Source: Selenomonadaceae bacterium
GTDB taxonomy: Bacteria > Bacillota > Negativicutes > Selenomonadales > Selenomonadaceae
Length of the DNA stretch: 33,557 nt
Reading direction: 5' to 3'
NCBI GenBank assembly: GCA_017412925.1
Contig: JAFPVP010000189.1
Location: forward strand, 1-33,557
The first letter of the stretch is position 1. Each line of letters opens with the position of its first letter. The notes beneath the pieces were generated by a model. The model ran no database searches, was not told the origin of the DNA, and saw only the letters and a program-made list of their open reading frames with translations. The position numbers and the translations under genes were made by a program. Shown here piece by piece: positions 5,684 through 33,557 of the stretch.

Positions 5684-5717
5684 ATCATCACCCCGTTAAA
5701 CATCGCTACGGAAAATT

Positions 5718-5807
5718 GCCGCTTTAAAAGCGGCGGAAGTTACTTTTAAAAAGTAACCAAACAGTTAGCGCGATTCAGCGTTAAAAAATTTTCAACTAAT
5801 CGCCGCG
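5718..5807. repeat. intergenic repeat element, copy A
   Basis: Lies in the 125-base gap between the two DUF4422 genes. It contains a palindrome with GCCGC / GCGGC arms around TTTAAAA (5718-5734), a second perfect palindrome GTTACTTTTAAAAAGTAAC (5739-5757), and a 40-base segment (5768-5807) that recurs at 10513-10552 with one mismatch. The matching copy B has an equivalent first palindrome but lacks the second. Confidence 0.7.
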
Positions 5808-5808
5808 T

Positions 5809-7284
5809 TCAAACGTCGTCACGGAAAATTATTGGCAGAGTTTTAATCTTAAGGCGGTTTTTAATCAGCCAAACGGTCATCAAATGTTCGGCAACGAAAC
5901 TGACTGCCCGATAAGTTCGCGGGTCGTCGGAGCTTGCAATGTCGGTCGTCGCTAAAATTTCTTCCGTGGCGTCGATTATAAACGAGAACAGCCACGCGCA
6001 ATAAGCGTTAAAAATTTCGTGGCGCGTGATGAAAATTTCGTAGCAGTAGACGCCGAAGCTGTCGTTCACCCTGTCATAAGCCGCAAGATAATCGGGTTGG
6101 CGGCGCGCGATAAATTTTCTGATTGTGGCGATGACGTGTTCGGCGAGCGGGCGCGTGCTGAGCAAAGTTTTCCAGTCGCGCAGGGCAATGTAGCCGAATT
6201 TGCAATCGTTGACGATTATATCCGAATCGCGCAGAATCTCCCGCGCAGAGTCCGTCGACAAAAAATTTTCGCCGTCCGTCGTGAAAAATCTGCGGTAGTG
6301 ACAAAAGCCGATAAAACTTTGGCGCGTGTGCTTCCACAGCCAATAAAGCGCGGTTATCTCGTTCAAGTACAAATTCAGGCGGCTGATATTGTCGCCGGTG
6401 TCGTCGCCCAAGTAGCCGAAATTCTCCTTGGCGAGCGTGTGCCCCGCGTGAATAATTTCATAGCCGTCAGGGAGCGTGGCGAGTTTAGCGTCTTTGTGCG
6501 TGACGATATAAATTTTAAAATCTGCGCGGGCGAACTTTTTCAACAGAAACCAATGCCCGTTGACAGCGGGGAAGACAGAAATTTTTTCAAAAATATTTTC
6601 GTTAGCCGCCAAAAATTTTTCAAGCGCGGAGCTACGTCGCACGAACGCCCAAATATTTTCCGTCAAAGCGTCCGTTTCAATCAGCGCGTCAATAAACTCG
6701 GCGGGCGAACGTTCAGCAGTCAATAAAACCGCGTCAAAAAATCTGAAGCGGCAGGCGGCGAGCGTGGGAAAAATTTCTTTGTAGAAGTGAAAATCCTCGG
6801 CGACGACGCCCGCGATTTTGTGATTCAAATCTGGGAACATGTAGTAATCGTTCTTGATAAAAAAGGCGTCCGCGTCGAGAACTCGTTGCGCGTGAATCAG
6901 ATTAAAAATTTGTACGGCGTTGTCCAGCGCGAAAAAATTATCCCGCGCGTAGTTTAAGAGCGTGGGCACGGTGATAACTCGGTCAACCAACTTGAGCGCA
7001 TAAAGTTCGCGGAAACGCAAAAGATATTCGTCGTGATTTTCAAAGACAATGTAATCCGCCGCGCCGTCCAAAATTTTCCGCAACGTGTCGACGGAAATCT
7101 CCGCGCCGTTCAAAAAAATTTTAAAGCTACCTTCGGCGAGTTTGAACTTGTCAGCGTATTTAACACCGCCCGGCACGATGAATTCGCCACGTTCCGCCGC
7201 GCCACGAAATTTTATCTGCCCGACAATTTCAGCGTTCGGAAGATTTTTTGATTTGCCGCAAAGCAGGATACGCGGTTTGTACAA
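5809..7284 (-). CDS. DUF4422 glycosyltransferase-like protein, copy 2
   Basis: A 491-residue paralogue of the next gene downstream, with the same unrecognised N-terminal domain (MYKPRILLCGKSKNLPNAEI) and a C-terminal DUF4422 domain (KIYIVTHKD, GDDTGDNISRLN, IGFCHYRRFF). Similarity is uneven. The junction of the two domains is almost identical between copies down to the DNA (6450-6572 against 4813-4935, three differences in 123 bases), while the C-terminal 150 residues and the middle of the N-terminal domain have drifted. The start is TTG (7284-7282) with GAGG eight bases upstream overlapping the stop of the sensor kinase gene, so the two are translationally linked. The link suggests the kinase and the surface-glycan genes belong to one regulated unit. 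Confidence 0.75.
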   Translation of the reverse strand: MYKPRILLCGKSKNLPNAEIVGQIKFRGAAERGEFIVPGGVKYADKFKLAEGSFKIFLNGAEISVDTLRKILDGAADYIVFENHDEYLLRFRELYALKLVDRVITVPTLLNYARDNFFALDNAVQIFNLIHAQRVLDADAFFIKNDYYMFPDLNHKIAGVVAEDFHFYKEIFPTLAACRFRFFDAVLLTAERSPAEFIDALIETDALTENIWAFVRRSSALEKFLAANENIFEKISVFPAVNGHWFLLKKFARADFKIYIVTHKDAKLATLPDGYEIIHAGHTLAKENFGYLGDDTGDNISRLNLYLNEITALYWLWKHTRQSFIGFCHYRRFFTTDGENFLSTDSAREILRDSDIIVNDCKFGYIALRDWKTLLSTRPLAEHVIATIRKFIARRQPDYLAAYDRVNDSFGVYCYEIFITRHEIFNAYCAWLFSFIIDATEEILATTDIASSDDPRTYRAVSFVAEHLMTVWLIKNRLKIKTLPIIFRDDV

Positions 7285-13277: not shown

Positions 13278-13303
13278 TAAAAAATGCCGCCGCTTAGGGC
13301 GAC
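13278..13303 (-). terminator. terminator of the exported-protein operon
   Basis: Minus strand: GTCGCC, loop, GGCGGC (six pairs with one mismatch), then ATTTTTTAT. It lies 17 bases after the stop of the TPR gene. Confidence 0.55.
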
Positions 13304-13320
13304 AAAAAATTTTCGGTTGA

Positions 13321-14277
13321 TTATCTGCGTCTAGCTTTTGCCTCGTAGGCAACTTGCATGTTTTGAATTGCGGGTTGGAAATTTTGATTGTTTGACAGCG
13401 CGCGATTATAGCAGTCAATCGCCGTGTCGTAGTCGCCGAGCTGATAGTAGCAAAGCCCCAAATTTGTGAATGCCGCAGACAGATTTACGCCCAGTTCGAT
13501 AGCTTTTTTGAAGTCGTCGATTGCTCGCTGATAATCTTTTCGCTCAAAGTAAATCAAGCCGCGATTGTTATAAATTGCACCGTAATTCGGGTCAATGGAG
13601 ATGGCTGTATTAAAATCGGCAAGCGCGCTGTCAAGCTCCCCGACGATTTTATAGGAAGAGCCGCGAGTAGAAAAAATTTGCGCGTTTTTCACGCCCAGTT
13701 CAATGGCGCGTGTCAAGTCAGCAATCGCCAAGCGGTCTTGTCCGCCCTCCCAAGAATAGACGACGCCGCGATTTTGATAAGCCTCGGCATAGTTGGGATT
13801 AAGTTCAATAGCGCGCGTCAAGTCGGCGATAGCCCGATTATAAATTGCAGAAGTATCGACGCCGGATTTTTCCTTGTAATCTGCCATTTTCCCCGTCAAC
13901 AAGCCGCGATTATTCAAGGCGACCGCATTGCCGGGATTAATTTCGACGGCGCGGGTATAATCGTTGTAAGCGTCATCAAAACGGCTTAGGCTTTCAAAAA
14001 CCGTGCCGCGATTGTTATAGGCGTCGGAATAATTCGGGTCGAGTTCAACGGCGCGGCTGAAATCGGCAAGGGCGCGTTCGTAATCTTTTTTAAGTTTGTA
14101 AGCATAGCCGCGATTGTTATAGACGACGGCGTTATTTGGCTCACTTTGAAGTTTTTGCGTATATTGAGCAATCGCGCTGTCGGCGTCAAAATTCATCGGC
14201 GCGGCAAATACGGGAGCCGCCAATAAACTCATCGCTAAAAAGCCGCCCGCGATTATTCGAGAAAATTTTTTCAACAT
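13321..14277 (-). CDS. exported tetratricopeptide-repeat protein
   Basis: A 318-residue protein with a signal peptide (MLKKFSRIIAGGFLAMSLLA, cleavage likely after VFA). After it come about eight TPR units carrying the repeated pattern A(V/I)xLNPNYAxAYxNRGxxY. TPRs are protein-protein scaffolds, so this probably holds partners together outside the cytoplasm. The final residues EAKARRR are basic. The ATG at 14277 has AGGTGA five bases upstream; the longer open frame upstream is not needed. It is the last of six genes running in the same direction from 19242, starting 13 bases after the LPP20-like gene, and is followed by a terminator. No enzymatic domain is visible. Confidence 0.85.
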   Translation of the reverse strand: MLKKFSRIIAGGFLAMSLLAAPVFAAPMNFDADSAIAQYTQKLQSEPNNAVVYNNRGYAYKLKKDYERALADFSRAVELDPNYSDAYNNRGTVFESLSRFDDAYNDYTRAVEINPGNAVALNNRGLLTGKMADYKEKSGVDTSAIYNRAIADLTRAIELNPNYAEAYQNRGVVYSWEGGQDRLAIADLTRAIELGVKNAQIFSTRGSSYKIVGELDSALADFNTAISIDPNYGAIYNNRGLIYFERKDYQRAIDDFKKAIELGVNLSAAFTNLGLCYYQLGDYDTAIDCYNRALSNNQNFQPAIQNMQVAYEAKARRR

Positions 14278-14290
14278 GTCAATCACCTGC

Positions 14291-15166
14291 TCAATACAAG
14301 AAAACAACGGCGGTCTTGTTGAGGAAACCGCTGGCTCCGTTCTCAATCAAAATGCGGCTGCCGTCCGCCTCGCTGACTACGGGGTTGGCGTTGTGGTCTT
14401 CAAGGCGTTCAGCTTTTATGACGAGCGGCTTGGCTCCTGCGCGGTCAGCCATGTTTCTATCGGTTGCGTAGTTGACCATGCCGTCGCGAACGACCAAATC
14501 ATAGTTCAAATTTTCGTGCCCGTAGAGTTTGACGCCCTTAACATTTTTGATAACAGGGCTCATGACGGGATTAAGATTTAAACCTCTACAGTCGATGATA
14601 AGCCCCGTATAGCCGCCAATCGCCGCCATGGGTGAACGTTCGCCGCCCTTAGCGATATTATAGCCCACGGAATCGCCCGTTTGGCTGTCGGCGGGCATGG
14701 AGGGAATAACTTCGGGCGCGGGTTGCGGAAAAGGTTCAATGACCGGCGCAGGAGGGATTACGGCAGTGGAAAGACCCGTTGCGCCGAACAGCGGAACTTG
14801 CATTTCAACTTCATAGCCGCCGCCGGCAAGTTCGCCCTCAGAAACGATAACGGCACCTTTGATAATCGCGCTAACTCTTGTCTTTACGATGTCGGAAGTC
14901 AACATCATCTGCTCGACTGTCGTCTCCGCGTCGACTTGCACGCCCGTAATCAATTCTGCCATTTGCCGATAACCATCAGCGATAGCCGCACGACGCGCCA
15001 TCATCAACGCATGAGCCGGAGTTTTTACCATTTGCGGATTGGCTGTGCCCATGCCTCTTACCGTTATGACTTTGTCGCCCCAATCAACCGCTGCCTCGGC
15101 ACGCACGCCCGTCAGCAAAAACATTGTCGCCAAGAGCACCGTCAAGCACGTGAACAACTTTTTCAT
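14291..15166 (-). CDS. exported LPP20-family protein
   Basis: A 291-residue protein with a Sec signal peptide (MKKLFTCLTVLLATMFLLTG, cleavage near AEA). The first domain (about 30-130) has the LPP20 pattern: VITVRGMGT, an Ala/Arg-rich helix AHALMMARRAAIADGYRQMA, a strand with VSAIIKGAVIVSE and a closing EVEMQVPL. A proline-rich linker (about 137-160) follows. The C-terminal domain opens with GYTGLIIDCRGLNLNPVMSP, which I recall from LPP20-like proteins of other diderm bacteria. No lipobox is present, so it is periplasmic or surface-bound rather than lipidated. GAGGAGG lies eight bases before the ATG. Function unknown; a structural or trafficking role in the envelope is inference from context. 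Confidence 0.75.
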   Translation of the reverse strand: MKKLFTCLTVLLATMFLLTGVRAEAAVDWGDKVITVRGMGTANPQMVKTPAHALMMARRAAIADGYRQMAELITGVQVDAETTVEQMMLTSDIVKTRVSAIIKGAVIVSEGELAGGGYEVEMQVPLFGATGLSTAVIPPAPVIEPFPQPAPEVIPSMPADSQTGDSVGYNIAKGGERSPMAAIGGYTGLIIDCRGLNLNPVMSPVIKNVKGVKLYGHENLNYDLVVRDGMVNYATDRNMADRAGAKPLVIKAERLEDHNANPVVSEADGSRILIENGASGFLNKTAVVFLY

Positions 15167-15181
15167 TTAAAACGCCTCCTC

Positions 15182-15898
15182 TTAACCTTTTTCTATTTGA
15201 GCCGCCGCCGCTTTAGATTCTTTCTTGCTCGGATCTTTTATACCACGCGCCTTGCGATATTCTTCGGTTGCTGTCTTCAAAGATTTAGAGAGTTCATTAC
15301 GAATTTTCAGCAGAGTGTCAGTTTCTTGAGCAATAGCTATAATGTTGCCTATACCTTCGACGACATTGCCGGACGCCACGCTTTTAAGTTGCGCCGCCGT
15401 GATAAATCCAATTTGAGTGTAGGAGACGCCCGCCATAACATCGGAAAGCACACGTTGATTGTTGGCAGTCTTTATGAATTCGTCGATTTGCTTAAGTTTT
15501 TCCTCGTCGCCAGAAGCCAACGCATCCGATAAATATTTCTTAACATTTTCGGCGTCATCTTTATTTTGTTTGGCACCGTTTTTCATATTAAGACCGGCAT
15601 CGGAAGTTTTTACGGCGGACTTCACAGCTTGTTCTTGCGTAATCAAATTTTTGTTGGCAATGCTGTCGTCGGTTGCAACTTTAACATTCGCGTAAGCACT
15701 GGCGAGCAATGCCGTCGAATAGTAAAAATTTTCAAGCATTCTCTTGTTGGCAGTGTTTATGTCTCCACCGGCTACACCGAGCAGACTGCTGGCAAATTGC
15801 CCCAAATTAAATGCCTCCGCCGTCGGAGCACTTACACCGCCACCGATAACGCCCAAAATGACAGCAGTAGCCGCCACTTTTTTAAAAAACTTCTTCAT
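15182..15898 (-). CDS. exported helical protein of unknown function
   Basis: A 238-residue protein that starts at ATG 15898, seven bases after GGAGG. A signal peptide (MKKFFKKVAATAVILGVIGG, cleavage near AEA) is followed by an almost wholly helical, charged protein (LGQFASSLLGVAGGDINTAN; EKLKQIDEFIKTANNQRV; KIRNELSKSLKTATEEYRKA) and a Lys/Ala-rich tail. It has no Cys and no motif that I recognise. Composition is compatible with a self-assembling helical bundle or a periplasmic chaperone, but this cannot be told from sequence. A 77-base gap separates it from the upstream gene; I saw no clear promoter or terminator there, so it probably shares the operon. Confidence 0.7.
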   Translation of the reverse strand: MKKFFKKVAATAVILGVIGGGVSAPTAEAFNLGQFASSLLGVAGGDINTANKRMLENFYYSTALLASAYANVKVATDDSIANKNLITQEQAVKSAVKTSDAGLNMKNGAKQNKDDAENVKKYLSDALASGDEEKLKQIDEFIKTANNQRVLSDVMAGVSYTQIGFITAAQLKSVASGNVVEGIGNIIAIAQETDTLLKIRNELSKSLKTATEEYRKARGIKDPSKKESKAAAAQIEKG

Positions 15899-15975
15899 AA
15901 CCATTCCTCCTATCATTTAACACGAAAGATAAATTTACTGATACTCGACCGAAGCCGTAATATCCGCATGAAAAA

Positions 15976-16845
15976 TTATTTTTGCGCCCAATATTTAACC
16001 AAACTGTCGGTAATCGATTTAGAGGACGTGACCGCTGCCTTTTCAAAGAGGAACATGCCGTAGCGATTTACATCCATGCTCGGAACGCTCAAAACCTCGC
16101 TGCCGTCGTAGTCCTCAATAATCGTGAAATTGTTCAAGCAGTCCAGCGAGTGAATTTCCATTTCGCAAGACATCGTAACGCCGTCCGCGTGCTCCAATTC
16201 CTTTGCCATCCTTATTTCGCCGACAATAGCCGTGCAAATTTCGGGATTCTCTTTAGTCTTCTGCTTGACGAACGCGACGAATTGGTTAAAGTCCATGGAG
16301 CGCGTTTGATTGAGTTGCCCGATAACTTCGTCGGCGTTGGCGACAACAAATTTATTTTCCTTAAGCCGCGTCAAGTACCGTTGAAGTATGACGTTTTCGG
16401 CACTGCGAAGTTGCTCCTCCGTCACGTTGCCGACGAATCGAACGAAAACATAAACTTCGCGGGTGACGTCATTGGCGTGGAAAATTTTGACGAGCTGACC
16501 GAGGGCGAGTTGAATGTCCGCATATTTAATTTCAACTCTGCCCGTGACGAACGCGCCCGAAGAATTTTTGCCGCGCTTTTCCACGTGAACTTTGTCAATA
16601 AAGCTGTTGTAAAGTTTAATCAGCTGTTGATAGGGCGAGGCGGGGTCGTCGCTGCGTTCGGTGATTTGCGCCAAGACGCGCTTAATCGTCGAAAGTTTCA
16701 TGTCCTCAATCGCCGCCGCCTCGGTTGCACCTTTGCCGCCCGAAGGTATACCGCGCGGAGTAGCAGCATAAACGTTCGCCGAAAAACTTTGCGCGAGAAA
16801 AATTACCGCCAATAAAATCAAGAGTTTACAAAAAAAATTTTTCAT
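15976..16845 (-). CDS. exported protein, FlgT/LPP20-like
   Basis: A 289-residue protein with a signal peptide (MKNFFCKLLILLAVIFLAQS, cleavage near YAA). After a Gly-rich stretch there is an Ala-rich helix (GATEAAAIEDMKLSTIKRVL) and strands (NSSGAFVTGRVEIKYADIQL; REVYVFVRFVGNVTEEQL). This helix-then-strand order recalls the N-terminal domain of flagellar assembly protein T and LPP20 proteins, but it is the weakest match of the cluster. The Cys at 6 is within the signal peptide and not a lipobox. AAGGTGA lies four bases before the ATG. It starts nine bases after the stop of the upstream gene. No flagellar genes are near, so a flagellar role is unlikely. Confidence 0.6.
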   Translation of the reverse strand: MKNFFCKLLILLAVIFLAQSFSANVYAATPRGIPSGGKGATEAAAIEDMKLSTIKRVLAQITERSDDPASPYQQLIKLYNSFIDKVHVEKRGKNSSGAFVTGRVEIKYADIQLALGQLVKIFHANDVTREVYVFVRFVGNVTEEQLRSAENVILQRYLTRLKENKFVVANADEVIGQLNQTRSMDFNQFVAFVKQKTKENPEICTAIVGEIRMAKELEHADGVTMSCEMEIHSLDCLNNFTIIEDYDGSEVLSVPSMDVNRYGMFLFEKAAVTSSKSITDSLVKYWAQK

Positions 16846-16854
16846 ATCGTCACC

Positions 16855-18006
16855 TTAAAACGAGAGATGAATTTTGGTCGCGCCGAGTTCGCCGCTGGGA
16901 TTGATGCCCGGTTGAATTCCGGAAATTGAACTCAGAAGAGCTTCCTGCAATTCGCCAATATTTGAATAAGAATCCGTCGAAATAAAGAACGCCAAAGTTG
17001 TTGCATTCGGGCGCGTCATGCGGATTATTTTGCATTGCGCCTTGTCAAGCCCCGCCTTAATCAGCGGATATTGCGCTTGATAATTCGTGACGTTGCCGAT
17101 AACGACGGAAGTTTTTATATTTATGTAGCCGCCGCGAGTTTCATTTTGGACGGTCTCAAGGGCTTGCTTTGCCAAAGACTCCATTGCCTCGCGAGTGGCA
17201 TTTTCTTTTGCGTTAAAAATTGCTTCGTTTTCGGTGGCGGCGACGCCCTTAACGTGTTTGCTGTAAACGTCGACTTCGCTCGAATCCAAGCCGATTAATT
17301 CAAAGGAAGCGTTGACGACAGCCTCATACACACCGCCCGATTTTTTTACCGATTCAACGTCCAACACGCCGCGCAGAAGGGCGTTCTCAATTTCACGGTT
17401 TTCTTTGGCAATCGCCCTAGCTTTTATTCTGACGTCAGGGTCGGAGTAATTTTTAGTCAAGTAATCGACGACGTTGTCATTTGTCACGGCACGCAAGCCC
17501 ACAAATTTTAATTTCGCGTTCAAGTAGTCGCCGAATTCGGGACTGTAGTTGTATACGCCGCGATTTTTTTCTATTACGGCAGTCATAATTCCGCCGCGAG
17601 AATTGGAGTCATTTACGTTGGCATCAAGCTGAGATTTTAAATCCTGTGCAAATTGGCGAATCCGTTCGGCACTTGCCTCAATATCAAGCTCGACAAAGAA
17701 AATATCACCGCGCGCCTCCTCCGAAATGACGCGATTTATCGTTATGTAGCCGTCCGACTTCAAAACAATTTCATCTTTGACGACGGCAAAATTTGCAACT
17801 TCCGTCGTGCTCGTCACTTTGACGCCCGCCACCTTCTCGACGCCCTCGCGCATTGCCTGCTTGCGAGCCTCTCTTTTTGCGCCGTCAATGTCGCCGTTGA
17901 TTATCGGAGCAAAACCTTTGACCACAAAAGCTTCAGCCGGCGAAATTAAACCGATTGTGCAGATTGCAAACGTCAGCAAAAAAATTCCAGCCAGAAAATT
18001 TTTCAT
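16855..18006 (-). CDS. exported protein with FlgT N-terminal-like domain
   Basis: A 383-residue protein. A signal peptide (MKNFLAGIFLLTFAICTIGL, cleavage near AEA) precedes a domain with the pattern of the FlgT N-terminus / LPP20: GFAPIINGDIDGAKREARKQ, AMREGVEKVAGVKVTSTTEV, LKSDGYITINRVISEE and FFVELDIEAS. A second related-looking module, KHVKGVAATENEAIFNAKEN onward, lies in the C-terminal half, so the protein may hold two copies of the fold. The ATG is directly adjacent to the stop of the upstream gene (18007), so translation is coupled. Role unknown; the family acts in envelope-associated assemblies such as the outer-membrane ring of Vibrio flagella (FlgT). Confidence 0.7.
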   Translation of the reverse strand: MKNFLAGIFLLTFAICTIGLISPAEAFVVKGFAPIINGDIDGAKREARKQAMREGVEKVAGVKVTSTTEVANFAVVKDEIVLKSDGYITINRVISEEARGDIFFVELDIEASAERIRQFAQDLKSQLDANVNDSNSRGGIMTAVIEKNRGVYNYSPEFGDYLNAKLKFVGLRAVTNDNVVDYLTKNYSDPDVRIKARAIAKENREIENALLRGVLDVESVKKSGGVYEAVVNASFELIGLDSSEVDVYSKHVKGVAATENEAIFNAKENATREAMESLAKQALETVQNETRGGYINIKTSVVIGNVTNYQAQYPLIKAGLDKAQCKIIRMTRPNATTLAFFISTDSYSNIGELQEALLSSISGIQPGINPSGELGATKIHLSF

Positions 18007-19242
18007 CTACTTAACCTTCTTTCCTGCCTGCGCCGCCGCCGATTTAACTGCCGCACCAATCATCAGCCCGCCAAAAATTTCTTGCTCGTCCTTTATAATT
18101 TTGTTGGCGACGGAATTTGTCTTGAGAAATTCTTCCGTGATGTCGTTTGTGACTTCGATAACTTTGCCGCCGACGTTGCTCTTCATCCAAAGACGATACG
18201 CTTTGAAACCGTTAATGTCGGAGGTGTATTTCGTCTCGATTTCCTTGCTGCCCGCGCCCGTCACGTCAAGATAAATTTTGTGGTCAACTTTGGTCGGCAT
18301 ACGGATATTTTTTTCGCCGGAGTGCGACGTGTTCATTTTTGCGACGTAAAAACCTTGCGTGGCGTCAGTCGTCCAGCTGGAGGTATCGCCTTCCAAAATC
18401 ATCGGGTAGACAATCTTGCCCGTGTGCGCGGCGAAATCGCTCGTGAAAACATTGCCGGCAATGCGTTGCATTAATTTGTTCATGCCCAGAACGCCGCGAG
18501 CTTTCTCCGAACTGTAGGAAACATTTTCCACGCGATAAGTTTCAACGCGATATTCTTTGTCCGCCAGCCCTTTGACGACTTTGCCCGCCTTCGTGAAATC
18601 CAAATGCTTCTTAATCATGTTCGCCGTAAAGTTCGCATAAATTCCGGCAAGCTCCACTTGACTTTTCTCGGTCATGTCGCTAATTGCATTAGACAGCGGA
18701 ATCGACTCGTAAAAATGGAGCGGAATGTTGCTTAGAATAGTCAACGCGCCGCTCTCGTCATCTTCGCCGCAAAAGGCAATGTCTATCGCCGAAACGATTA
18801 TGTATTTGTGATAAACTTGATTATTAATGACGTAAGTTTTATCAATCGAATAATCCGTCACGACGATTGGCACCAAGGCAATCGGCTCACTCATTGCCGA
18901 ATCGTTTAGTTCAAAATTGCGCTCGGAAAGATTTTCTGTATCAAGCGTCATCTTCAACTTGAACGGCAATTTGTCTTTCTGTTCAGTGAGTTTGTCGGCG
19001 ATAGCTTTGGCAATTATTTCGCGATTAGCTTTTTGCTCTGCGGCGGTTCCAGCGTTCAAAAGTTGATAGTTGCGCCTTCTTTGCGCATTTTGATAATCGT
19101 CTGCAACCGTCATCGTGTAAATATCACGCGACCAGACGATTTCGGGCAAGTCCTTTGCTTCGGCGACGCTGAAAATACTCATCAAGATTAGCCCGCCGAA
19201 TAAAAGTTGCCGCATTACATTTCCCAAAAATTTTCTCCACAT
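18007..19242 (-). CDS. exported protein of unknown function, first gene of the six-gene operon
   Basis: A 411-residue protein starting at ATG 19242, after GGGAGGGG. The signal peptide is MWRKFLGNVMRQLLFGGLIL with cleavage near AEA. The mature part mixes helices rich in Glu/Lys with strands (IALVPIVVTDYSIDKTYVIN; NQVYHKYIIVSAIDIAFC; GKIVYPMILEGDTSSW) and ends in a short Ala/Gly-rich helix (GGLMIGAAVKSAAAQAGKKV). I do not recognise a family with confidence. The order VxDYSI...NNQVYHKYIIVSA is reminiscent of periplasmic modules in CsgG/LPP20 neighbourhoods, but that is a guess. It leads the operon and sits behind a promoter region with a nine-base G tract. Confidence 0.65.
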   Translation of the reverse strand: MWRKFLGNVMRQLLFGGLILMSIFSVAEAKDLPEIVWSRDIYTMTVADDYQNAQRRRNYQLLNAGTAAEQKANREIIAKAIADKLTEQKDKLPFKLKMTLDTENLSERNFELNDSAMSEPIALVPIVVTDYSIDKTYVINNQVYHKYIIVSAIDIAFCGEDDESGALTILSNIPLHFYESIPLSNAISDMTEKSQVELAGIYANFTANMIKKHLDFTKAGKVVKGLADKEYRVETYRVENVSYSSEKARGVLGMNKLMQRIAGNVFTSDFAAHTGKIVYPMILEGDTSSWTTDATQGFYVAKMNTSHSGEKNIRMPTKVDHKIYLDVTGAGSKEIETKYTSDINGFKAYRLWMKSNVGGKVIEVTNDITEEFLKTNSVANKIIKDEQEIFGGLMIGAAVKSAAAQAGKKVK

Positions 19243-20557: not shown

Positions 20558-20588
20558 TTGAATCCGCCGAATTTTTTTGTGTTATAAT
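20558..20588 (+). promoter_or_regulatory. promoter of the diguanylate cyclase pair
   Basis: -10 TATAAT at 20583-20588; best -35 is TTGAAT at 20558-20563 with a long 19-base spacer. The start point near 20595 would leave a leader of only about 15 bases before the ATG at 20610. Confidence 0.5.
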
Positions 20589-20609
20589 CAAAGAAATTTT
20601 TCAAGGGGG

Positions 20610-22568
20610 ATGAGTTCCATATCTGTCGAAAAAGCCCTTTCCATTTGCTTGGCGGGGTTACTTTTGAACTTGGGCGGCTCCTTCGTCGTCAAAACTTTTA
20701 ATCTGCCTTTTTTCTTCGACACGAGCGGCACAATTTTTGTCGCGGCTCTGGGAAGTTACATGCCTGGTATCGTGGTCGGTTTCCTAACCAATCTTTTGAA
20801 GGCTCCGTTCGATTCTTTCCAAATGTATTTCGCCTCCGTCAGCATACTCATTGCAATTTTCTCGACATTTTTTGCGCGGAAAGGTTTCTTTGACAGCTTA
20901 AGAAAAACGCTTCTACTTATCCCGCTACTGACGCTTTTTACGGGCGGCTGTTCGCTGGTCATAGAAAGTTTTTTGAACTCGGCGAGTTTCCTTGCCTCCG
21001 TCGAAGAATTTAATTTGAACTTCGCGGATAATTTCTGGAGCGAACTTTTCGATAAAGCAATTTCGATTCTCTTTGTCTTTTTCCTATTGAAATTCACGCC
21101 CGCGCAGATAAAAAAATATTTCCGTACTCTGGGGCGGCGGCAAGCTCCGCTGTCCGAAGAAATGAAGCAAGGCATCGGCAAGGAAAATTATCTGTCCTCG
21201 TCACTGCGCACCAAGTTGCTCCTCATGCTGATGTTGAGTTCTTTTTTAGTTTCATTTTCCGTTGCGTTTATCAGCTACTTGCTCTTCAAAGACGCCGCTG
21301 TCAGCGACCGCATAAAATCTGTTGACAGCATGGACGCGGTTATCCTTAGCGAGATTAACCCTTACCGTATCGGCGAGTACATGGCTTTGGGGCGTCAATC
21401 CGAAGACTACAAAGCGGTTGAGGAAAAACTTTACTCCATAAAAAACAGTAGCCCCGATGTAAAATATCTTTACGTCTACAGATTTTCGGAGGACGGCTGC
21501 CACGTTGTATTCGACTTGAACACGGCGATGATTGAAGCCGACAAGCCGGGCGAGGTCATTGAATTCGATGATGATGTTCTGCCCTACAAAGACGACTTGT
21601 TGGCGGGCAGACCCATTCCGCCGATTATCTCCGACGACGAATACGGCTATTTGCTCACGATTTACAAGCCGCTCTACGACGCGGAGGGCGTCTGTCAATG
21701 CTACGTGGCGATTGATTTTTCCTTGGATCCGCTGGCAGAATACGCTCACGGCTTCATAATCAAGTTGCTCGTGCTGTTCATAGGTTGCTTTACGGTTATC
21801 TTTTCTATCGGGCTTTGGTTTATTGAGAACAATATTATCCTGCCCGTCAACACCATGGCTTATTGCGCGCGGCATTTCTCCTACGACGACGCGGCGGCTC
21901 GTGAAAAGCACATTGAACTGATTAGAAGTTTGAAGATACGCACGGGCGACGAGATAGAAAATTTATATCAAGCACTGTTGCGGACGACGGAAAATATTTT
22001 GCGATATTTGGAGCACCTGCATATAGCCAAGACGAAAGTCGCTGACATGCGCGTTAAATTTTTCGCCATGGACGAAATCGCGCACAAGGATTCGCTGACC
22101 GGCGTTAAAAATAAAACTGCCTACGCGGAATTGACTGACGCCATTGACAAAAAAATTTCTGCGGGCGCGGCGGAATTTTGTATCGTGATGGTCGACGTGA
22201 ACTTTTTAAAGCGCGTCAACGACACCTACGGGCACGAGCGCGGCAACGATTATCTTAGGAACGCCTGCAAATTGGTTTGCGCGGTCTTCGGCGAGAAACA
22301 CGTTTATCGTATTGGCGGCGACGAATTCGTCGTTGTGATTGAGGGCGAGAAAGTTTCTCTGTGCAAATATTTTGTGGCGCAATTCAAATTCGAGATGGAG
22401 CGGAAAAATTCCAACGCCCTGCTTGAGCCGTGGGAAAAAATTTCGGCGGCGGTGGGCGTGGCTTACTACGAACCCGCCGAAGATAAAACTGCGGACGAAG
22501 TTTTTAAGCGGGCGGATAAACTCATGTACGAAAACAAATTGGCGATGAAAGCCGCGAGGATTAATTGA
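20610..22568 (+). CDS. membrane diguanylate cyclase, copy 1
   Basis: Makes cyclic di-GMP from two GTP at the inner membrane. The 652-residue protein has an N-terminal bundle of about five hydrophobic segments (10-165) reminiscent of small-solute transporter S components. Next come a helix at about 202-225, an external Cache-like sensor region (about 230-380), a helix (382-403), a linker with the HAMP-like TGDEIENLYQALLRTTENIL, and a GGDEF domain. Catalytic features are intact: VDVNFLKRVNDTYGHERGN and RIGGDEF (569-573). The RxxD inhibitory site is absent (FGEK in that place), so product feedback through it is not expected. Start ATG 20610 gives the same nine-residue lead as its paralogue, though AAGGGGG is unusually close. 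The next gene begins one base after the stop. Confidence 0.88.
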   Translation: MSSISVEKALSICLAGLLLNLGGSFVVKTFNLPFFFDTSGTIFVAALGSYMPGIVVGFLTNLLKAPFDSFQMYFASVSILIAIFSTFFARKGFFDSLRKTLLLIPLLTLFTGGCSLVIESFLNSASFLASVEEFNLNFADNFWSELFDKAISILFVFFLLKFTPAQIKKYFRTLGRRQAPLSEEMKQGIGKENYLSSSLRTKLLLMLMLSSFLVSFSVAFISYLLFKDAAVSDRIKSVDSMDAVILSEINPYRIGEYMALGRQSEDYKAVEEKLYSIKNSSPDVKYLYVYRFSEDGCHVVFDLNTAMIEADKPGEVIEFDDDVLPYKDDLLAGRPIPPIISDDEYGYLLTIYKPLYDAEGVCQCYVAIDFSLDPLAEYAHGFIIKLLVLFIGCFTVIFSIGLWFIENNIILPVNTMAYCARHFSYDDAAAREKHIELIRSLKIRTGDEIENLYQALLRTTENILRYLEHLHIAKTKVADMRVKFFAMDEIAHKDSLTGVKNKTAYAELTDAIDKKISAGAAEFCIVMVDVNFLKRVNDTYGHERGNDYLRNACKLVCAVFGEKHVYRIGGDEFVVVIEGEKVSLCKYFVAQFKFEMERKNSNALLEPWEKISAAVGVAYYEPAEDKTADEVFKRADKLMYENKLAMKAARIN

Positions 22569-22569
22569 T

Positions 22570-24390
22570 ATGGAAAAAAATAATTCGCCGTCACCGATTC
22601 TAATATGCGGGGCGGCAATCGTTTTGAATTTATGCGGGGCGTTCGTGGCGCGGCATTTTGAGTTGCCTTTGTACTTAGACACCGTCGGCACAGTTTTAAT
22701 CGCAATGATGAGCGGCTACGTGCCGGGAATTGTCGTGGGATTCGCGACGCATTTTTTTGCCTCGTTCGCCGACGAATCAGAAATGTATTATTGCTCGGTC
22801 AGCATTTTCGTTGCGATTTACACGACGTTTCTTGCGCGACGCGGCGTCTTCCAAAATTTTTTAAAGACGCTAACGGCAATCCCTGCGCTTACATTGGTTG
22901 CGGCGATTTTGAGCGCAGTCATCGGGAAATTTTTATTCTGCACGGGCGTCGTCCAAGCCCTAAGCGAAATTCAAATGAACTTCACGACGATTTTTCTAAA
23001 GGAGCTGGGCGACAAGAGTTTAACGCTTATAGCGGCGTTCGTGTTGTTGAAGTTCATGCCTGCGCGGGTTAAAGAAGTTTTTCGCGGGCTGGGACAAAAA
23101 CAATCGCCGCTTACCAAAGAAATGAAACATGCGCTCTACGGGCACAAATGTCCGAAGTCATCACTGCGCGTGAAAGTTCTTTTGATATTGATGTTGAGTT
23201 CGCTTTTTATCGCGGCGTCGATTGCGTCAATCAGCTACAGAATTTTCGAGCAAGCTTGCGTTGGCGTGCAAATAAAAATCGGCGACGGACTTGCTACGAT
23301 TGCCGCTGACCAAATTGACATTGCGAATCTTGACGCCTCCAAAGAAAATCTTCTCAGCATAAAGAACAGCAACCCCGACGTGAAATATCTCGGCATTTAC
23401 AAAGCGGAGGACGCTATCTCCGACGAAAAAATTTTAATCTATCGTGACGACTTACTCGCGAGCAAACCGATTCCGCCGATTATCGCCGACGACCGCCTGA
23501 CGATTTACAAGCCCGTCTACGACGCGGCGGGCAAGGCTCAATGCTACGTCGTGATTGAAATGTCGCTGGATTTGATTTCCGATTATGGCAGAACTTTTAC
23601 CGCCAAAGTGCTCGCGCTGTTCTCTGGTTGCTTCGTGTTCGTGTTCGTTATCGGTCTGCGCTTCGTCGAAAACAACGTTATCTTGCCCGTCAACACGATG
23701 TCCTATTGCGCGAAAAATTTTGCTTACGACGGCAGCGAGTTCTGCGTTAAAAGTCTTGAGCAAATTAAAAACTTGAAAATCCACACGGGCGACGAGATAG
23801 AAAATTTATATCACGCGCTGGTTAAGACGACACAAGACGCTATGAATTATTTTGAGAAATTGCGGCGGGCGAAAAGGCAAGTCGCGGAGATGGACGAATT
23901 GGCGCACAAAGATTCGTTGACGGGCATAAAAAATAAAGCCGCCTACGACGAGATGACGGCTCGGCTTGACGAAAAAATTTCTGCGGGCGGCGCGCAGTTT
24001 TGTATAGTTATGGTCGACGTGAACTTTTTAAAGCGAATTAACGACACCTACGGTCACGAGCACGGCAATACTTACCTTTTGAACGCGAGCAAATTAATTT
24101 GTTCGGTCTTCGGCGAGGAGCACGTTTATAGGATTGGCGGCGATGAATTCGTCGTTGTGATTGAAGGCGAAAAAGTTTCTCTGTGCAAATATTTTGTGGA
24201 GCAATTCAAAGCGGAGATGGCGCGGAAAAATTCCAATGCCCTGCTTGAGCCGTGGGAAAAAGTTTCGGCGGCGGCGGGCTTAGCTTTTTACGAATCTGGC
24301 AAAGATAGAACTGCGGACGAAGTTTTTAAGCGAGCCGATAAGCTTATGTACGAAAACAAGTTGGCGATGAAGGCCGCGCGAACCGATTAA
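22570..24390 (+). CDS. membrane diguanylate cyclase, copy 2
   Basis: A 606-residue tandem paralogue of the preceding gene with the same domain order. The external sensor region is about 50 residues shorter: it lacks the segment containing SEDGCHVVFDLN-like sequence in copy 1. So the two may sense different ligands but share output. The GGDEF domain keeps VDVNFLKRINDTYGHEHGN and RIGGDEF (523-527); the inhibitory RxxD is replaced by FGEE. The last third is close to identical between copies at DNA level, which indicates recent duplication or gene conversion. Start ATG 22570 is one base after the previous stop, with no good ribosome binding site of its own, so its translation probably depends on the upstream gene. 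A terminator follows. Confidence 0.88.
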   Translation: MEKNNSPSPILICGAAIVLNLCGAFVARHFELPLYLDTVGTVLIAMMSGYVPGIVVGFATHFFASFADESEMYYCSVSIFVAIYTTFLARRGVFQNFLKTLTAIPALTLVAAILSAVIGKFLFCTGVVQALSEIQMNFTTIFLKELGDKSLTLIAAFVLLKFMPARVKEVFRGLGQKQSPLTKEMKHALYGHKCPKSSLRVKVLLILMLSSLFIAASIASISYRIFEQACVGVQIKIGDGLATIAADQIDIANLDASKENLLSIKNSNPDVKYLGIYKAEDAISDEKILIYRDDLLASKPIPPIIADDRLTIYKPVYDAAGKAQCYVVIEMSLDLISDYGRTFTAKVLALFSGCFVFVFVIGLRFVENNVILPVNTMSYCAKNFAYDGSEFCVKSLEQIKNLKIHTGDEIENLYHALVKTTQDAMNYFEKLRRAKRQVAEMDELAHKDSLTGIKNKAAYDEMTARLDEKISAGGAQFCIVMVDVNFLKRINDTYGHEHGNTYLLNASKLICSVFGEEHVYRIGGDEFVVVIEGEKVSLCKYFVEQFKAEMARKNSNALLEPWEKVSAAAGLAFYESGKDRTADEVFKRADKLMYENKLAMKAARTD

Positions 24391-24477: not shown

Positions 24478-25308
24478 ATGAAACAATTTCTAATCGCGTT
24501 GATGATGAGTTTGCTCGTCACTTCTACTGTCAACGCTGAAACGGAAACTTATACCGGCGAGGGCAAAGCAACGATGAGCGAAGCCGAAACACAGGAACAA
24601 ATTATCGAACGGGCGAAGACTTACGCGCTAAGGAACGCTCGCGAAAAAGCCGGCGTCTATATAAGGAGCCGTTCCGAACTCCGCGACTTTGAACTTGTCG
24701 AAGATGATATTGTAACGATGACAGCAGGAGTTTTGAAAATCACGGACACGCAGATAGAGAAAACTTTGGTCAACGACGCCATCCAAGTTTTCGTGACGGT
24801 CACGGTGATAATCGACAGCGACGAGTTGAAACAGAATATTGACGACTTCATTAACTCTCATGGAAATGTGAATATTCCTGTCGACGCCGTAAAATTCAAC
24901 TACAACGGTCACAGATACAAAGTTATCGACACGGGGCTCACTTGGACGGACGCCAAAGCTTATTGCGAATCCCTCGGCGGTCATTTGGTAACTATAACTT
25001 CGGGCGTGGAGCAAGCCTTTGTACAAGACTTGATAGTCAGTCGCGGAACGAAAGGTTACTATTGGACGGGCGGCGTCAGGAATTCCGCAGGCGATTTTAT
25101 TTGGATTACTGGCGAAGAATTTTCCTATTCCAACTGGGCTAATGGCGAACCCAACAACGGTTTTGGCGACGAAGATATAATTACAATCTATAAGTATCAA
25201 GGGATTAACGGCATGTGGAATGATGTGGCAAAACTGGGCAACACTGCAGGTAAATATCCTTTCTTTAACATTGAAAATTCCGGTTTCGTCTGCGAATGGG
25301 ACAGCTGA
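24478..25308 (+). CDS. exported LPP20-like protein with C-terminal C-type lectin domain
   Basis: A 276-residue protein. A signal peptide (MKQFLIALMMSLLVTSTVNA) is followed by an LPP20/FlgT-like domain (about 21-125: YTGEGKATMSE, ERAKTYALRNAREKAGVYIR, VFVTVTVIIDSDEL). After that comes a C-type lectin fold (about 140-276): FNYNGHRYKVIDTGLTWTDA, AKAYCESLGGHLVTITS, YYWTGGVRNS, and the ligand/Ca2+ signatures EPNNG and WND with closing FVCEWD. The pair of Cys typical of the fold is present. EPN in animal lectins favours mannose-type sugars, but bacterial members often bind protein or glycans in other ways. A -10 box (TATAAT, 24441-24446) stands just after the upstream terminator; AGAGG precedes the ATG. 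The N-terminal module resembles those in the 14291-18006 cluster, so it may be a tip or adhesin component of the same system (inference). Confidence 0.8.
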   Translation: MKQFLIALMMSLLVTSTVNAETETYTGEGKATMSEAETQEQIIERAKTYALRNAREKAGVYIRSRSELRDFELVEDDIVTMTAGVLKITDTQIEKTLVNDAIQVFVTVTVIIDSDELKQNIDDFINSHGNVNIPVDAVKFNYNGHRYKVIDTGLTWTDAKAYCESLGGHLVTITSGVEQAFVQDLIVSRGTKGYYWTGGVRNSAGDFIWITGEEFSYSNWANGEPNNGFGDEDIITIYKYQGINGMWNDVAKLGNTAGKYPFFNIENSGFVCEWDS

Positions 25309-25337: not shown

Positions 25338-27839
25338 TTGCAAGTACTTTACAATCTCGCGGCGATACTCGTCGTGATTCTAATTATTCCGGTGTTCATG
25401 ATTCGTTCGATACGTGAGCGCGGCTTCGTGGAGCGAATCAAACAGAGCTTTGGATTTTTCCCGAAGGGCGCACTTGACCCCGTGGCGAAAAAAAATTGTA
25501 TCTGGGTGCACGCGGCGTCGGTCGGGGAAATCGTAGCGACAAGCCCGCTGATAAAAGAATTCCGCCGCGAATTTCCCAAGTCGCCGATTTTAGTTTCGGT
25601 CGTGACGACTTCGGGCTACGAAATGGCGAACCGAATCATCAAGGACGCGGACAGCATAATTTATTTTCCGCTGGATTTGCCGTTCGTGTCAGCGTCGGTC
25701 TTCCGCAGAATTTTTCCGCGCGTTTTTCTCAACGTCGAGACGGAACTTTGGCCAAACTTTTTAAAAGCGGCGCGGGAAAATCACGTGCCGGTTATGATGG
25801 TCAACGGGCGCATTTCCGAAAAGAGCGTTAAGCGTTACAAGTACATGTTTTCAATCCTGCGCGACATGATTTCCACGGTGAAACTTTTTGCCATGGCGTC
25901 GCCCGTCGACGCGGGTTATGTCAAGCAACTCGGCGCGCCCGAAGAACTCGTAACTATCACGGGCAACACGAAATTCGACCAAACTTACACGGACGTGACT
26001 GACGCTCAGCGCGAAAAAATTTTGTCGGACATGGGCTTGACGGACGCAACGGAAATTTTTTTGGCTGGCTCAACTCATCGCGGCGAGGAAAATTTTGTTC
26101 TCAAAGCTTTTAAAGCAATTCGCGAAAATCACCCCAAGGCGCGGCTCGTGATTGCTCCGCGTGAACTTTTGCGCACCCGTGAAGTAGTCGCGCTGTGCAA
26201 GGCGGCAGGTTTTTCCGTCGGCACGCGCACCGAGCTCCAGAAACGTCCGCCCGCTAACGAAGACATAATTATCCTTGACACAATCGGCGAACTTGGGCAA
26301 GTTTACAGCGTCGGCAACGTGATTTACGTCGGCGGCAGTTTGGTTTCGCACGGCGGGCATAATATTTTGGAACCAGCGGCGCACGGCAAAGCTATAATCG
26401 TCGGGCACCACATGGAAAATTTCAAGGACTTGCACGCGCTCTTTAAAAACCGCAACGCCTGCATAACCGTAAACGACGCCGAAGAACTCGCCGCGCAGGC
26501 GAAAAAACTTTTTGACGAACCCGAAGAACGCCGCCGCCTTGAGGAAGAGACGATTAAGATTGTCCACGAAAACCGCGGCGCGTCCCGTAAATCGGCTGTA
26601 CTTTTACGGCAAATGCTCACCGAGTACGAAGCTAAAGAAATTGCCCGCCGCCTCCGCACGACGGAAAAAATTGAGAACGTCCAAACATATTTTTTGAAGC
26701 TGATTCACGACGAGGAAGTTCGCGGAGCGTTCACGCCGCTGATAATTTTTATTTTGTATCTCGGCTCGCTGATTTATAAAGGGCTGGTCAATCTACGCTT
26801 GCTCGGCTATCAGCTGGGCTTTTCGGGCAAAGAGCGACTAAATTGTTTCGTGATAAGTTTGGGCAATATCACGGTCGGCGGCACGGGCAAAACTCCCACG
26901 GCTCAACGGCTGGCTAAAGAAATTCGTGACATGGGCTATCGCGTCGTGATTTTGAATCGTGGCTATCGCGCGAAATTTTACGGCGAAGTTGGAATCGTCA
27001 GCGACGGAAAAAATTTAAACATGAACGCGACGGAGGCGGGCGACGAAGCTTACATGCTCGCCAAACATTTGCCCAACGTCCCTGTTCTAATCGGGGCGCG
27101 GCGGGCTGTCACGGGGCAATACGCCATTGAACATTTCGGCGCGGAAGTTGTCATTCTCGACGACGGTTATCAGCATTGGCAAGTTATCCGCGACTTGGAT
27201 ATTTTGCTGATTGACGCGGTGTCTATCTTCGGCAACGGGCATTTGCTCCCGCGCGGAACTTTGCGCGAATCAATTTCCCATATCAGCCGCGCAGATGTTT
27301 GCTTGATGACTAAAGTTGACCAGGCGGGCGAAGGCTCCTGCGATTTGATTCGTCAAACCGTCCGCAAATACAATTCCGCCGCGCTCCTTGTCGAAAGTAT
27401 TCACGAGCCGCGCTGCCTGATTCCGCTTGCCGAGTGGTCGATTGATTTGGCGGGCGAAGGCGTCAGCGTCGAAATTATCAGCGGGCGCAAAGTTATGGCG
27501 GTGTCTGCGATTGGAAATCCCGCGTCATTTGAACGCACGCTCAGAGATTTGGGCGCGGAAATTATTTCGAGTTTGCGCTACCCCGACCACCACGACTACA
27601 CGATTATGGAGATGGAAGACATTTTGCGGCAAGCTGATTCGTTCGCGGCGGAGATGATTATCGTCACGGAGAAGGACGCCGTTAAAATTCCCGACGAAGT
27701 CGCCAAGGTAAATTGGAACATTCCCATTTACGTCATCAGCGTCGAAGTTAAATTCCAAACGGGCGCAGACGACTTCAAAAAACTTTTGCGCGAGCGATTG
27801 GAGGCTAAGGTTAAAGGGAGTTCGTCGCGATTACAGTGA
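25338..27839 (+). CDS. waaA-lpxK: fused Kdo transferase and tetraacyldisaccharide 4'-kinase
   Basis: A bifunctional LPS enzyme of 833 residues. The N-terminal part (1-430) is WaaA/KdtA, which adds Kdo to lipid IVA. It shows a membrane anchor (4-22), HAASVGEIVA with the catalytic Glu near 64, NVETELWPN, the sugar-nucleotide loop HRGEE, and GGSLVSHGGHNILEPAAHG (332-350). The C-terminal part (about 490-833) is LpxK, which phosphorylates the 4' position of lipid A. It has a Walker A GNITVGGTGKT (509-519) and the catalytic DDGYQH (608-613). A linker with a hydrophobic segment (464-480) joins them. The start is TTG 25338, eight bases after GAGGAG. Both activities appear intact. The gene normally next in such operons, kdsB, is absent: an opposing gene begins 44 bases after the stop. 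Confidence 0.93.
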   Translation: MQVLYNLAAILVVILIIPVFMIRSIRERGFVERIKQSFGFFPKGALDPVAKKNCIWVHAASVGEIVATSPLIKEFRREFPKSPILVSVVTTSGYEMANRIIKDADSIIYFPLDLPFVSASVFRRIFPRVFLNVETELWPNFLKAARENHVPVMMVNGRISEKSVKRYKYMFSILRDMISTVKLFAMASPVDAGYVKQLGAPEELVTITGNTKFDQTYTDVTDAQREKILSDMGLTDATEIFLAGSTHRGEENFVLKAFKAIRENHPKARLVIAPRELLRTREVVALCKAAGFSVGTRTELQKRPPANEDIIILDTIGELGQVYSVGNVIYVGGSLVSHGGHNILEPAAHGKAIIVGHHMENFKDLHALFKNRNACITVNDAEELAAQAKKLFDEPEERRRLEEETIKIVHENRGASRKSAVLLRQMLTEYEAKEIARRLRTTEKIENVQTYFLKLIHDEEVRGAFTPLIIFILYLGSLIYKGLVNLRLLGYQLGFSGKERLNCFVISLGNITVGGTGKTPTAQRLAKEIRDMGYRVVILNRGYRAKFYGEVGIVSDGKNLNMNATEAGDEAYMLAKHLPNVPVLIGARRAVTGQYAIEHFGAEVVILDDGYQHWQVIRDLDILLIDAVSIFGNGHLLPRGTLRESISHISRADVCLMTKVDQAGEGSCDLIRQTVRKYNSAALLVESIHEPRCLIPLAEWSIDLAGEGVSVEIISGRKVMAVSAIGNPASFERTLRDLGAEIISSLRYPDHHDYTIMEMEDILRQADSFAAEMIIVTEKDAVKIPDEVAKVNWNIPIYVISVEVKFQTGADDFKKLLRERLEAKVKGSSSRLQ

Positions 27840-33483: not shown

Positions 33484-33557
33484 TGTCATTCTTCCTTTTG
33501 AATTTATCGCGCTTATTTCTAACAACGAATTCGACGCGGCGTTAAAACTTCCTGCAA

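Follow-up and report, generated by a model that had tools for sequence, protein, structure and literature searches.

FlgP, Lpp20 and CsgG are all lipoproteins. Rings built from FlgP and from FlgT are known as parts of flagellar motors, and the wider FlgP family is described as broad. Here we analyse a six-gene operon coding for exported proteins, some with domains of these classes, in a 33,557-nucleotide stretch of DNA from a rumen selenomonad, hereafter the window (contig C179 of genome G000, which measures 2.59 Mb, is 94.9% complete and is taken to belong to Quinella, Selenomonadaceae). We put at about even odds (a probability of roughly 0.5) the reading that the operon encodes a non-flagellar, periplasmic ring or lattice of FlgP/FlgT-class proteins associated with the outer membrane; how such a structure would assemble, where it would lie and what it would be for, we infer. 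The six genes, numbered P1 to P6 in order of transcription, are as follows.

18007..19242, minus strand: P1, 411 residues, exported, first gene of the operon; seemingly two lobes of an LptE/PqiC-class fold
16855..18006, minus strand: P2, 383 residues, exported; FlgP/FlgT_N ring-type domain first, then a domain common to P3
15976..16845, minus strand: P3, 289 residues, exported; SHS2-like first domain (in the model), then a homologue of the second domain of P2
15182..15901, minus strand: P4, about 239 residues, exported, helical-looking; between P3 and P5 in the window
14291..15166, minus strand: P5, 291 residues, exported; FlgP-like domain at about 36-128, Tp0624-D2-like C-terminal domain at about 180-291
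13321..14277, minus strand: P6, 318 residues, exported TPR array (Pfam TPR_1, 3.5e-59)

All six are open frames at these coordinates, which confirms the six same-strand genes of a preliminary description made from the sequence. A charged, hydrophobic leader with an AxA-like site begins every product (judged by eye), in agreement with the signal peptides claimed there. The spacing of 0-15 bases given in the same description holds for four gaps (P1-P2 0, P2-P3 9, P4-P5 15 and P5-P6 13 bases) and fails for P3-P4, which are 59-74 bases apart depending on the start chosen. The ratio of non-synonymous to synonymous substitution rates against two relatives is 0.06-0.20, so the six genes are under purifying selection, and we rejected the idea that they are decayed. 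Above its cut-offs, Pfam recognises LPP20 in P5 (1.1e-6), FlgT_N in P2 (4.6e-8) and the TPRs of P6, bearing out the LPP20/FlgT-N module that had been proposed for P5 and P2. The window's P1, P3 and P4 have no Pfam match above cut-off, and Pfam and NCBIfam together gave no result for them.

A profile built from 15 P5 relatives matched, among PDB chains, 9hmf_C at E=4.9e-21 and the Vibrio FlgP chain 8z5n_2 at 4.6e-8, and the window's P5 sequence alone found the same two chains at 3e-11 and 1.2e-4. Although 9hmf_C carries the deposited name 'Lipoprotein, putative', we take it to be FlgP of Campylobacter, because 9HMF includes FlgP as a trimer, with three chains of this kind, and other chains matched by that profile bear the name FlgP. 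In the accessible part of PMC12222027, 9HMF is the modelled periplasmic scaffold of C. jejuni, and members of the FlgP family that form rings are stated to have an insert after the SHS2 helix, before the second strand. P5 aligns to 9hmf_C without a gap over the insert, the single one-residue gap falling near the end of the match, and would therefore seem to retain the ring-forming insert. The P2 profile (38 rows, two of the 40 P2 frames, L131 and L133, having been dropped) matches 9hmf_C at E=8.9e-9, and P2 is likewise ungapped across the part expected to hold the insert. For this profile the FlgP chains are followed by chance hits, with no FlgT among the PDB matches. FlgT_N is found by Pfam in 11 of 13 P2 members, while the middle domain FlgT_M has no Pfam match in P2 or P3 members and its model reaches cut-off in none of 60 genomes of relatives; P2 also shows a LipL46 match below cut-off (6.6e-5, NCBIfam/Pfam scan). 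By profile comparison with hhalign, the first domains of P2 and P5 are akin (probability 98.1, E=1.2e-13), as are the second domains of P2 and P3 (96.4, E=1e-9).

Residues 36-128 or so of P5 and 25-117 or so of P2 are thus sequence homologues of FlgP, as seen in the Campylobacter basal disk (9HMF) and the Vibrio H-ring (8Z5N). Unlike FlgP, however, P5 has no lipobox (0 of 8 sequences), carries an extra C-terminal domain and is encoded in an operon without flagellar genes, and most Quinella hold several related genes per genome. The C-terminal 113 residues of P5 match residues 139-261 of 5jir_B (E=1.1e-4 for the domain alone, 4.7e-5 for whole P5), which chain length and the published domain limits identify as D2 of Treponema Tp0624 (5JIR). 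According to the accessible part of PMC5104382, D2 of Tp0624 is found only together with D1 and D3, whereas in P5 the D2-like domain follows a FlgP-type domain. With FlgT of the Vibrio H-ring the operon shares the FlgT_N domain of P2, but it has two FlgT-like proteins side by side.

The second of these proteins is P3, whose AlphaFold2 model (predicted local distance difference score, pLDDT, 80.6; predicted template-modelling score, pTM, 0.54, which leaves the domain arrangement unsure) begins with a beta-alpha-(insert)-beta-beta-alpha, SHS2-like domain and continues with an alpha/beta domain. The best Foldseek hit of the two-domain model is 8z5n_0, a 352-residue chain of the Vibrio LPHT-ring (E=1.8e-8 over 282 columns, template-modelling (TM) score by query 0.37). 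This chain is probably FlgT, by its length and by elimination, chain 4 being the P-ring protein and chain 2 FlgP; the FlgT crystal structure 3W1E is not among the 50 best Foldseek matches listed. HpaA, CT253, GNA1162 and PelC follow and, lower, CsgG (E=1.8e-3). Pfam gave no match of note in 10 P3 members (FlgT_N 0 of 10), and a PDB sequence search returned weak, unrelated hits. The weak LPP20/FlgT-N-like module suspected in P3 is accordingly unsupported by Pfam and favoured by the predicted fold and its LPHT-ring match. L058, a short frame, was dropped from two P3 alignments, and L084, a near-copy of L083, from a series of alignments.

P1, a 411-residue protein previously left unrecognised, remains so by sequence: Pfam gave nothing better than 0.04 in 15 members, with no FlgO match either, PHROGs held no match, and no sequence kinship to LptE was found. 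Its AlphaFold2 model (pLDDT 79.7, pTM 0.80) matches LptE 4nhr in Foldseek (E=8.9e-5, probability 1.00, TM-score by target 0.49, root-mean-square deviation 6.7), as well as HpaA and PqiC and, far lower, CsgG. On this model P1 may be assigned, loosely, to the LptE/PqiC/HpaA fold class, to which Foldseek also relates the second domain of P3. In contrast to that class, P1 seems to hold two lobes, since the succession of helices and strands looks alike in two halves of the model; profile comparison of lobe with lobe finds no kinship, the two lobes being read from the order of helices and strands. The relatedness of folds expected across the operon applies to the domains of P2, P3 and P5, and by sequence not to P1.

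For P4, a PDB sequence search gave weak, unrelated hits and PHROGs one unnamed family (4e-4). Of the 45 places in the class where P1 was found, 21 have a P4-like gene upstream of P1 and 8 (the window included) have one downstream, while in 16 none is recognised. The upstream count favours itself, in that 5 of the 11 rows of the P4 profile come from those 21 genes, with L086 picked by position, and the upstream gene of G185 scores only 16 bits. The pair of P5 and TPR genes is also found without P1-P2-P3 (G021, G028).

Of 380 genomes in the class, 42 carry P1, spread over 12 of 102 genera; among the 60 Quinella genomes P1 is present in 10. In a phylum-wide sample of 299 genomes, at least nine of them from the class, it occurs in one, the window's own. 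A peptide-pattern scan of genome contigs yielded 15 loci while missing many known from the genome search, and says nothing on absence. Some of the metagenome-assembled genomes are very close to each other (G256/G259), so that counts are not independent.

We scanned the surroundings of all 45 P1 places (42 genomes) with profiles of P1 to P6, and found P1-P2-P3 consecutive, recognised and on one strand in 38, in line with the conservation of gene order that the preliminary description had proposed to look for. P2 follows P1 in 42 of the 45 (41 of 43 with room on the contig), P3 lies downstream of P1 in 41 (38 of 39 with room) and P5 in 31 (30 of 37 with enough contig), P5 being missing despite room in G030, G003, G081, G223, G183, G142 and G185. 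Exceptions to the three-gene order include places cut by a contig end (G005, the second place in G061, and G180), a P5-like gene inserted between P2 and P3 (G173) and a P2 in two overlapping frames (G172). The full six-gene order of the window recurs in G082, G076, G016, G214 and G215, and in G005 it is split by contig ends, with P4 in two frames. What had been described as a six-gene unit is better stated as a core of P1-P2-P3 with P5 behind it in most places, a P4-like gene that changes position, and a pairing of P5 with a TPR gene that is seen elsewhere too. A chance cluster was rejected, because the order is kept in places from 10 of the 12 genera. In one genome (G003:C64, L060 2035-15228) the core lies inside a longer same-strand run that has P5-like genes at both ends, a CsgG-family gene (7.7e-23) and another FlgT_N-like gene below cut-off. 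At L121 12327-14240 (G142) the P3 homologue is fused to an RCC1-type propeller.

Another way to view the operon is as an accessory disk (H-ring or basal disk) for the flagellar motor of selenomonads, with its genes lying apart from the main flagellar cluster. The presence of FlgP- and FlgT-class domains speaks for this. Of the flagellar H-ring set of FlgO, FlgP and FlgT, the FlgP and FlgT classes are represented, and Pfam gave no FlgO match in P1 members. The accessible part of PMC9585023 reports nearly all flagellar genes in four Quinella genome bins. The genome G000 itself holds FliG and FlgI, together with one CsgG-family gene, all outside the window. Acetonema longum is presumably also a Negativicute. 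Its FlgP served as a query in a motor study, as stated in the accessible part of PMC5758724.

A motor part would be expected to follow FliG. Across the whole class it does (FliG present/absent in 38/4 P1-bearing and 192/146 P1-less genomes, p=8e-6), which we attribute to flagella being present in most of the family. Within the 188 family members the association vanishes (37/3 against 131/17, p=0.58; figures counted by hand from genome rows and then recounted), P1 being missing from 131 of the 168 that have FliG. The same is true of the 60 Quinella, both for P1 (9/1 against 42/8, p=1.0) and for the P5 family (46/7 against 5/2, p=0.28); here a P5 match is absent in 5 of 51 FliG-bearing and present in 7 of 9 FliG-free genomes. 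P1 occurs without FliG in G061 (85% complete), G259 (86%), G116 (92%) and G265, the last being 99% complete. In agreement with the preliminary description, Pfam recognises no flagellar, curli or pilus family among the window's 20 other frames. Flagellar contigs were read in two genomes and carry none of P1-P5: no homologue of P1-P6 lies in the 60 kb read at the G247 flagellar cluster, and in 20 kb of the flgI contig of G000 the one relative is a TPR protein headed by a FlgP-type domain, about 17 kb from flgI. An operon of flagellar genes was rejected on this evidence, and we regard the motor disk as unlikely. Of the earlier interpretation, the non-flagellar envelope system is supported, with no FliG link in genus and family, while surface display and assembly are conjecture.

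Such display is the substance of a further alternative, a curli/CsgG-type surface-display or secretion system whose proteins line or feed an outer-membrane pore, which we consider quite unlikely. In its favour, the core in G003 is followed by CsgG-family genes (the one at 7.7e-23 above; three CsgG matches on the contig), the P3 model has CsgG among its matches and shares with it the fold class of its second domain, and related first domains are fused to lectin, CAP and TPR domains, or, for the P3 homologue of G142, to the propeller. Short tuft-like structures on the surface of putative Quinella cells are also mentioned in the accessible part of PMC9585023. However, the window's operon has no CsgG gene, and G030 (79% complete) has P1-P4 and gives no CsgG match. 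Nine CsgG-type sequences (L060 supplied one, and eight of 30 loci passed a frame filter) were compared with all domains, and the second domains of P2 and P3 were not significantly akin to them; no search was aimed at curli subunits. Several CsgG-family matches share one contig in G004:C2, G004:C64, G016:C32, G019:C21, G032:C205 and G035:C16, and a P5-like gene shares the contig of such a cluster in G016, G019, G035 and G032. A lipid or lipopolysaccharide transport or maintenance system at the outer membrane, in which P1 would assist in the manner of LptE or PqiC, is very unlikely: LptE and PqiC are among the best fold matches of P1, but this fold class serves many tasks (P3, too, matches HpaA, GNA1162, PelC and CsgG), Pfam finds no MCE, Lpt or permease gene in the operon, and a distribution as sparse as 42 of 380 genomes fits a housekeeping role badly.

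Returning to the non-flagellar ring or lattice, homology, leader sequences and gene order give its framework, and the steps beyond these we infer. Like FlgP, P5 and P2 would associate laterally and so build a ring or disk beneath the outer membrane, because their ungapped match spans the part expected to hold the ring-forming insert of Campylobacter FlgP. P2 and P3 would form a FlgT-like adaptor layer, and P1, through its two LptE/PqiC-class lobes, might contact the outer membrane or a protein in it. On the periplasmic side, partners may be bound by P4, which looks helical, by the C-terminal part of P5 that resembles D2 of Tp0624, and by the TPRs of P6, with P6 as a scaffold. A link between P5 and P6 gains weight since many single Quinella proteins begin with a FlgP-type domain and also contain a TPR array. 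The operon contains no candidate gene for a pore.

Several observations weigh against this reading. A pattern search found no lipobox in any of 46 sequences, so that the proteins lack a route to the outer membrane. The middle and last domains of P2 have no significant match among solved chains, and reach a probability of 2 or less against CsgG of Negativicutes. In the P3 model the insert is helical rather than a hairpin, and the P3 first domain has no significant sequence kinship to those of P2 and P5. P1 matches no solved chain by sequence and neither P2 nor P3 by profile, and its fold is a class-level lead only, since the TM-scores are below 0.5. The P4-like gene upstream of P1 in G247 (L116 9906-10775) has a Flagellin_N match, below cut-off at 0.0048, which perhaps reflects a shared helical make-up only. 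To these are added the class-wide association of P1 with FliG, the incompleteness of many of the genomes, which are metagenome-assembled, and the two departures from gene order in G230 (no P2) and G223 (P1 without P2, P3 or P5), the only P1 members of their genera.

Outside the operon, the window encodes a related protein in which, as first described, such a module is joined to a lectin: its first domain matches the P2 profile at 4e-9 and Pfam recognises Lectin_C in it (5.6e-14). It belongs to a large family of exported proteins in which a FlgP/SHS2-type first domain is followed by a coiled coil and TPRs, a C-type lectin, a CAP domain or a second copy of the module. Matches occur in 16 of 21 Quinella genomes, with 13 in G000 and up to 17 per genome, some genes holding two matches in the genome that reaches that number. 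These features and the end of the operon, where terminator-like patterns show no enrichment over shuffled sequence (10 against 10.8 in the region), are located as follows.

13285..13304, minus strand: terminator-like stem-loop and T run directly after P6; a possible, weakly indicated operon end
24478..25308, plus strand: related exported protein outside the operon, FlgP/SHS2-type first domain and C-type lectin domain
Window 24478-25308 and loci L068, L070 and L169-L188: FlgP/SHS2-headed exported family

By Pfam, the other 20 frames of the window are metabolic, signalling, repair and envelope genes, two being without a match. An 833-residue frame at 25338-27839 fuses two lipopolysaccharide enzymes, a Kdo-transferase domain and LpxK; with the placement in Selenomonadaceae, which we take to be diderm Negativicutes, it agrees with the diderm Firmicute proposed at the outset. 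Two adjacent GGDEF paralogues, 54% identical, and nearby a GGDEF-EAL gene are found at 20577-24390 and 31798-33525, and a pair of adjoining DUF4422 paralogues, 62% identical, at 4172-7284.

Each of the domain classes is already known; the new aspects would be their combination, the missing lipid anchors and the non-flagellar setting. None of the papers listed by a literature search, mostly outside subscription journals, dealt with a FlgP/FlgT operon apart from flagella or with LPP20 proteins of Negativicutes. A wider proposal, which we hold as doubtful, is that selenomonads build, apart from the flagellum, a second outer-membrane ring or lattice of FlgP/FlgT type on which an expanded set of exported FlgP-headed TPR, lectin and CAP proteins dock, flagellar rings being one branch of an older, general family of envelope lattices. 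Should a conserved operon of these classes indeed be independent of flagella within its family, ring parts would serve other tasks in the envelope as well, which would bear on how motors recruited outer-membrane disks, and diderm Firmicutes would gain a new envelope structure to seek by cryo-tomography.

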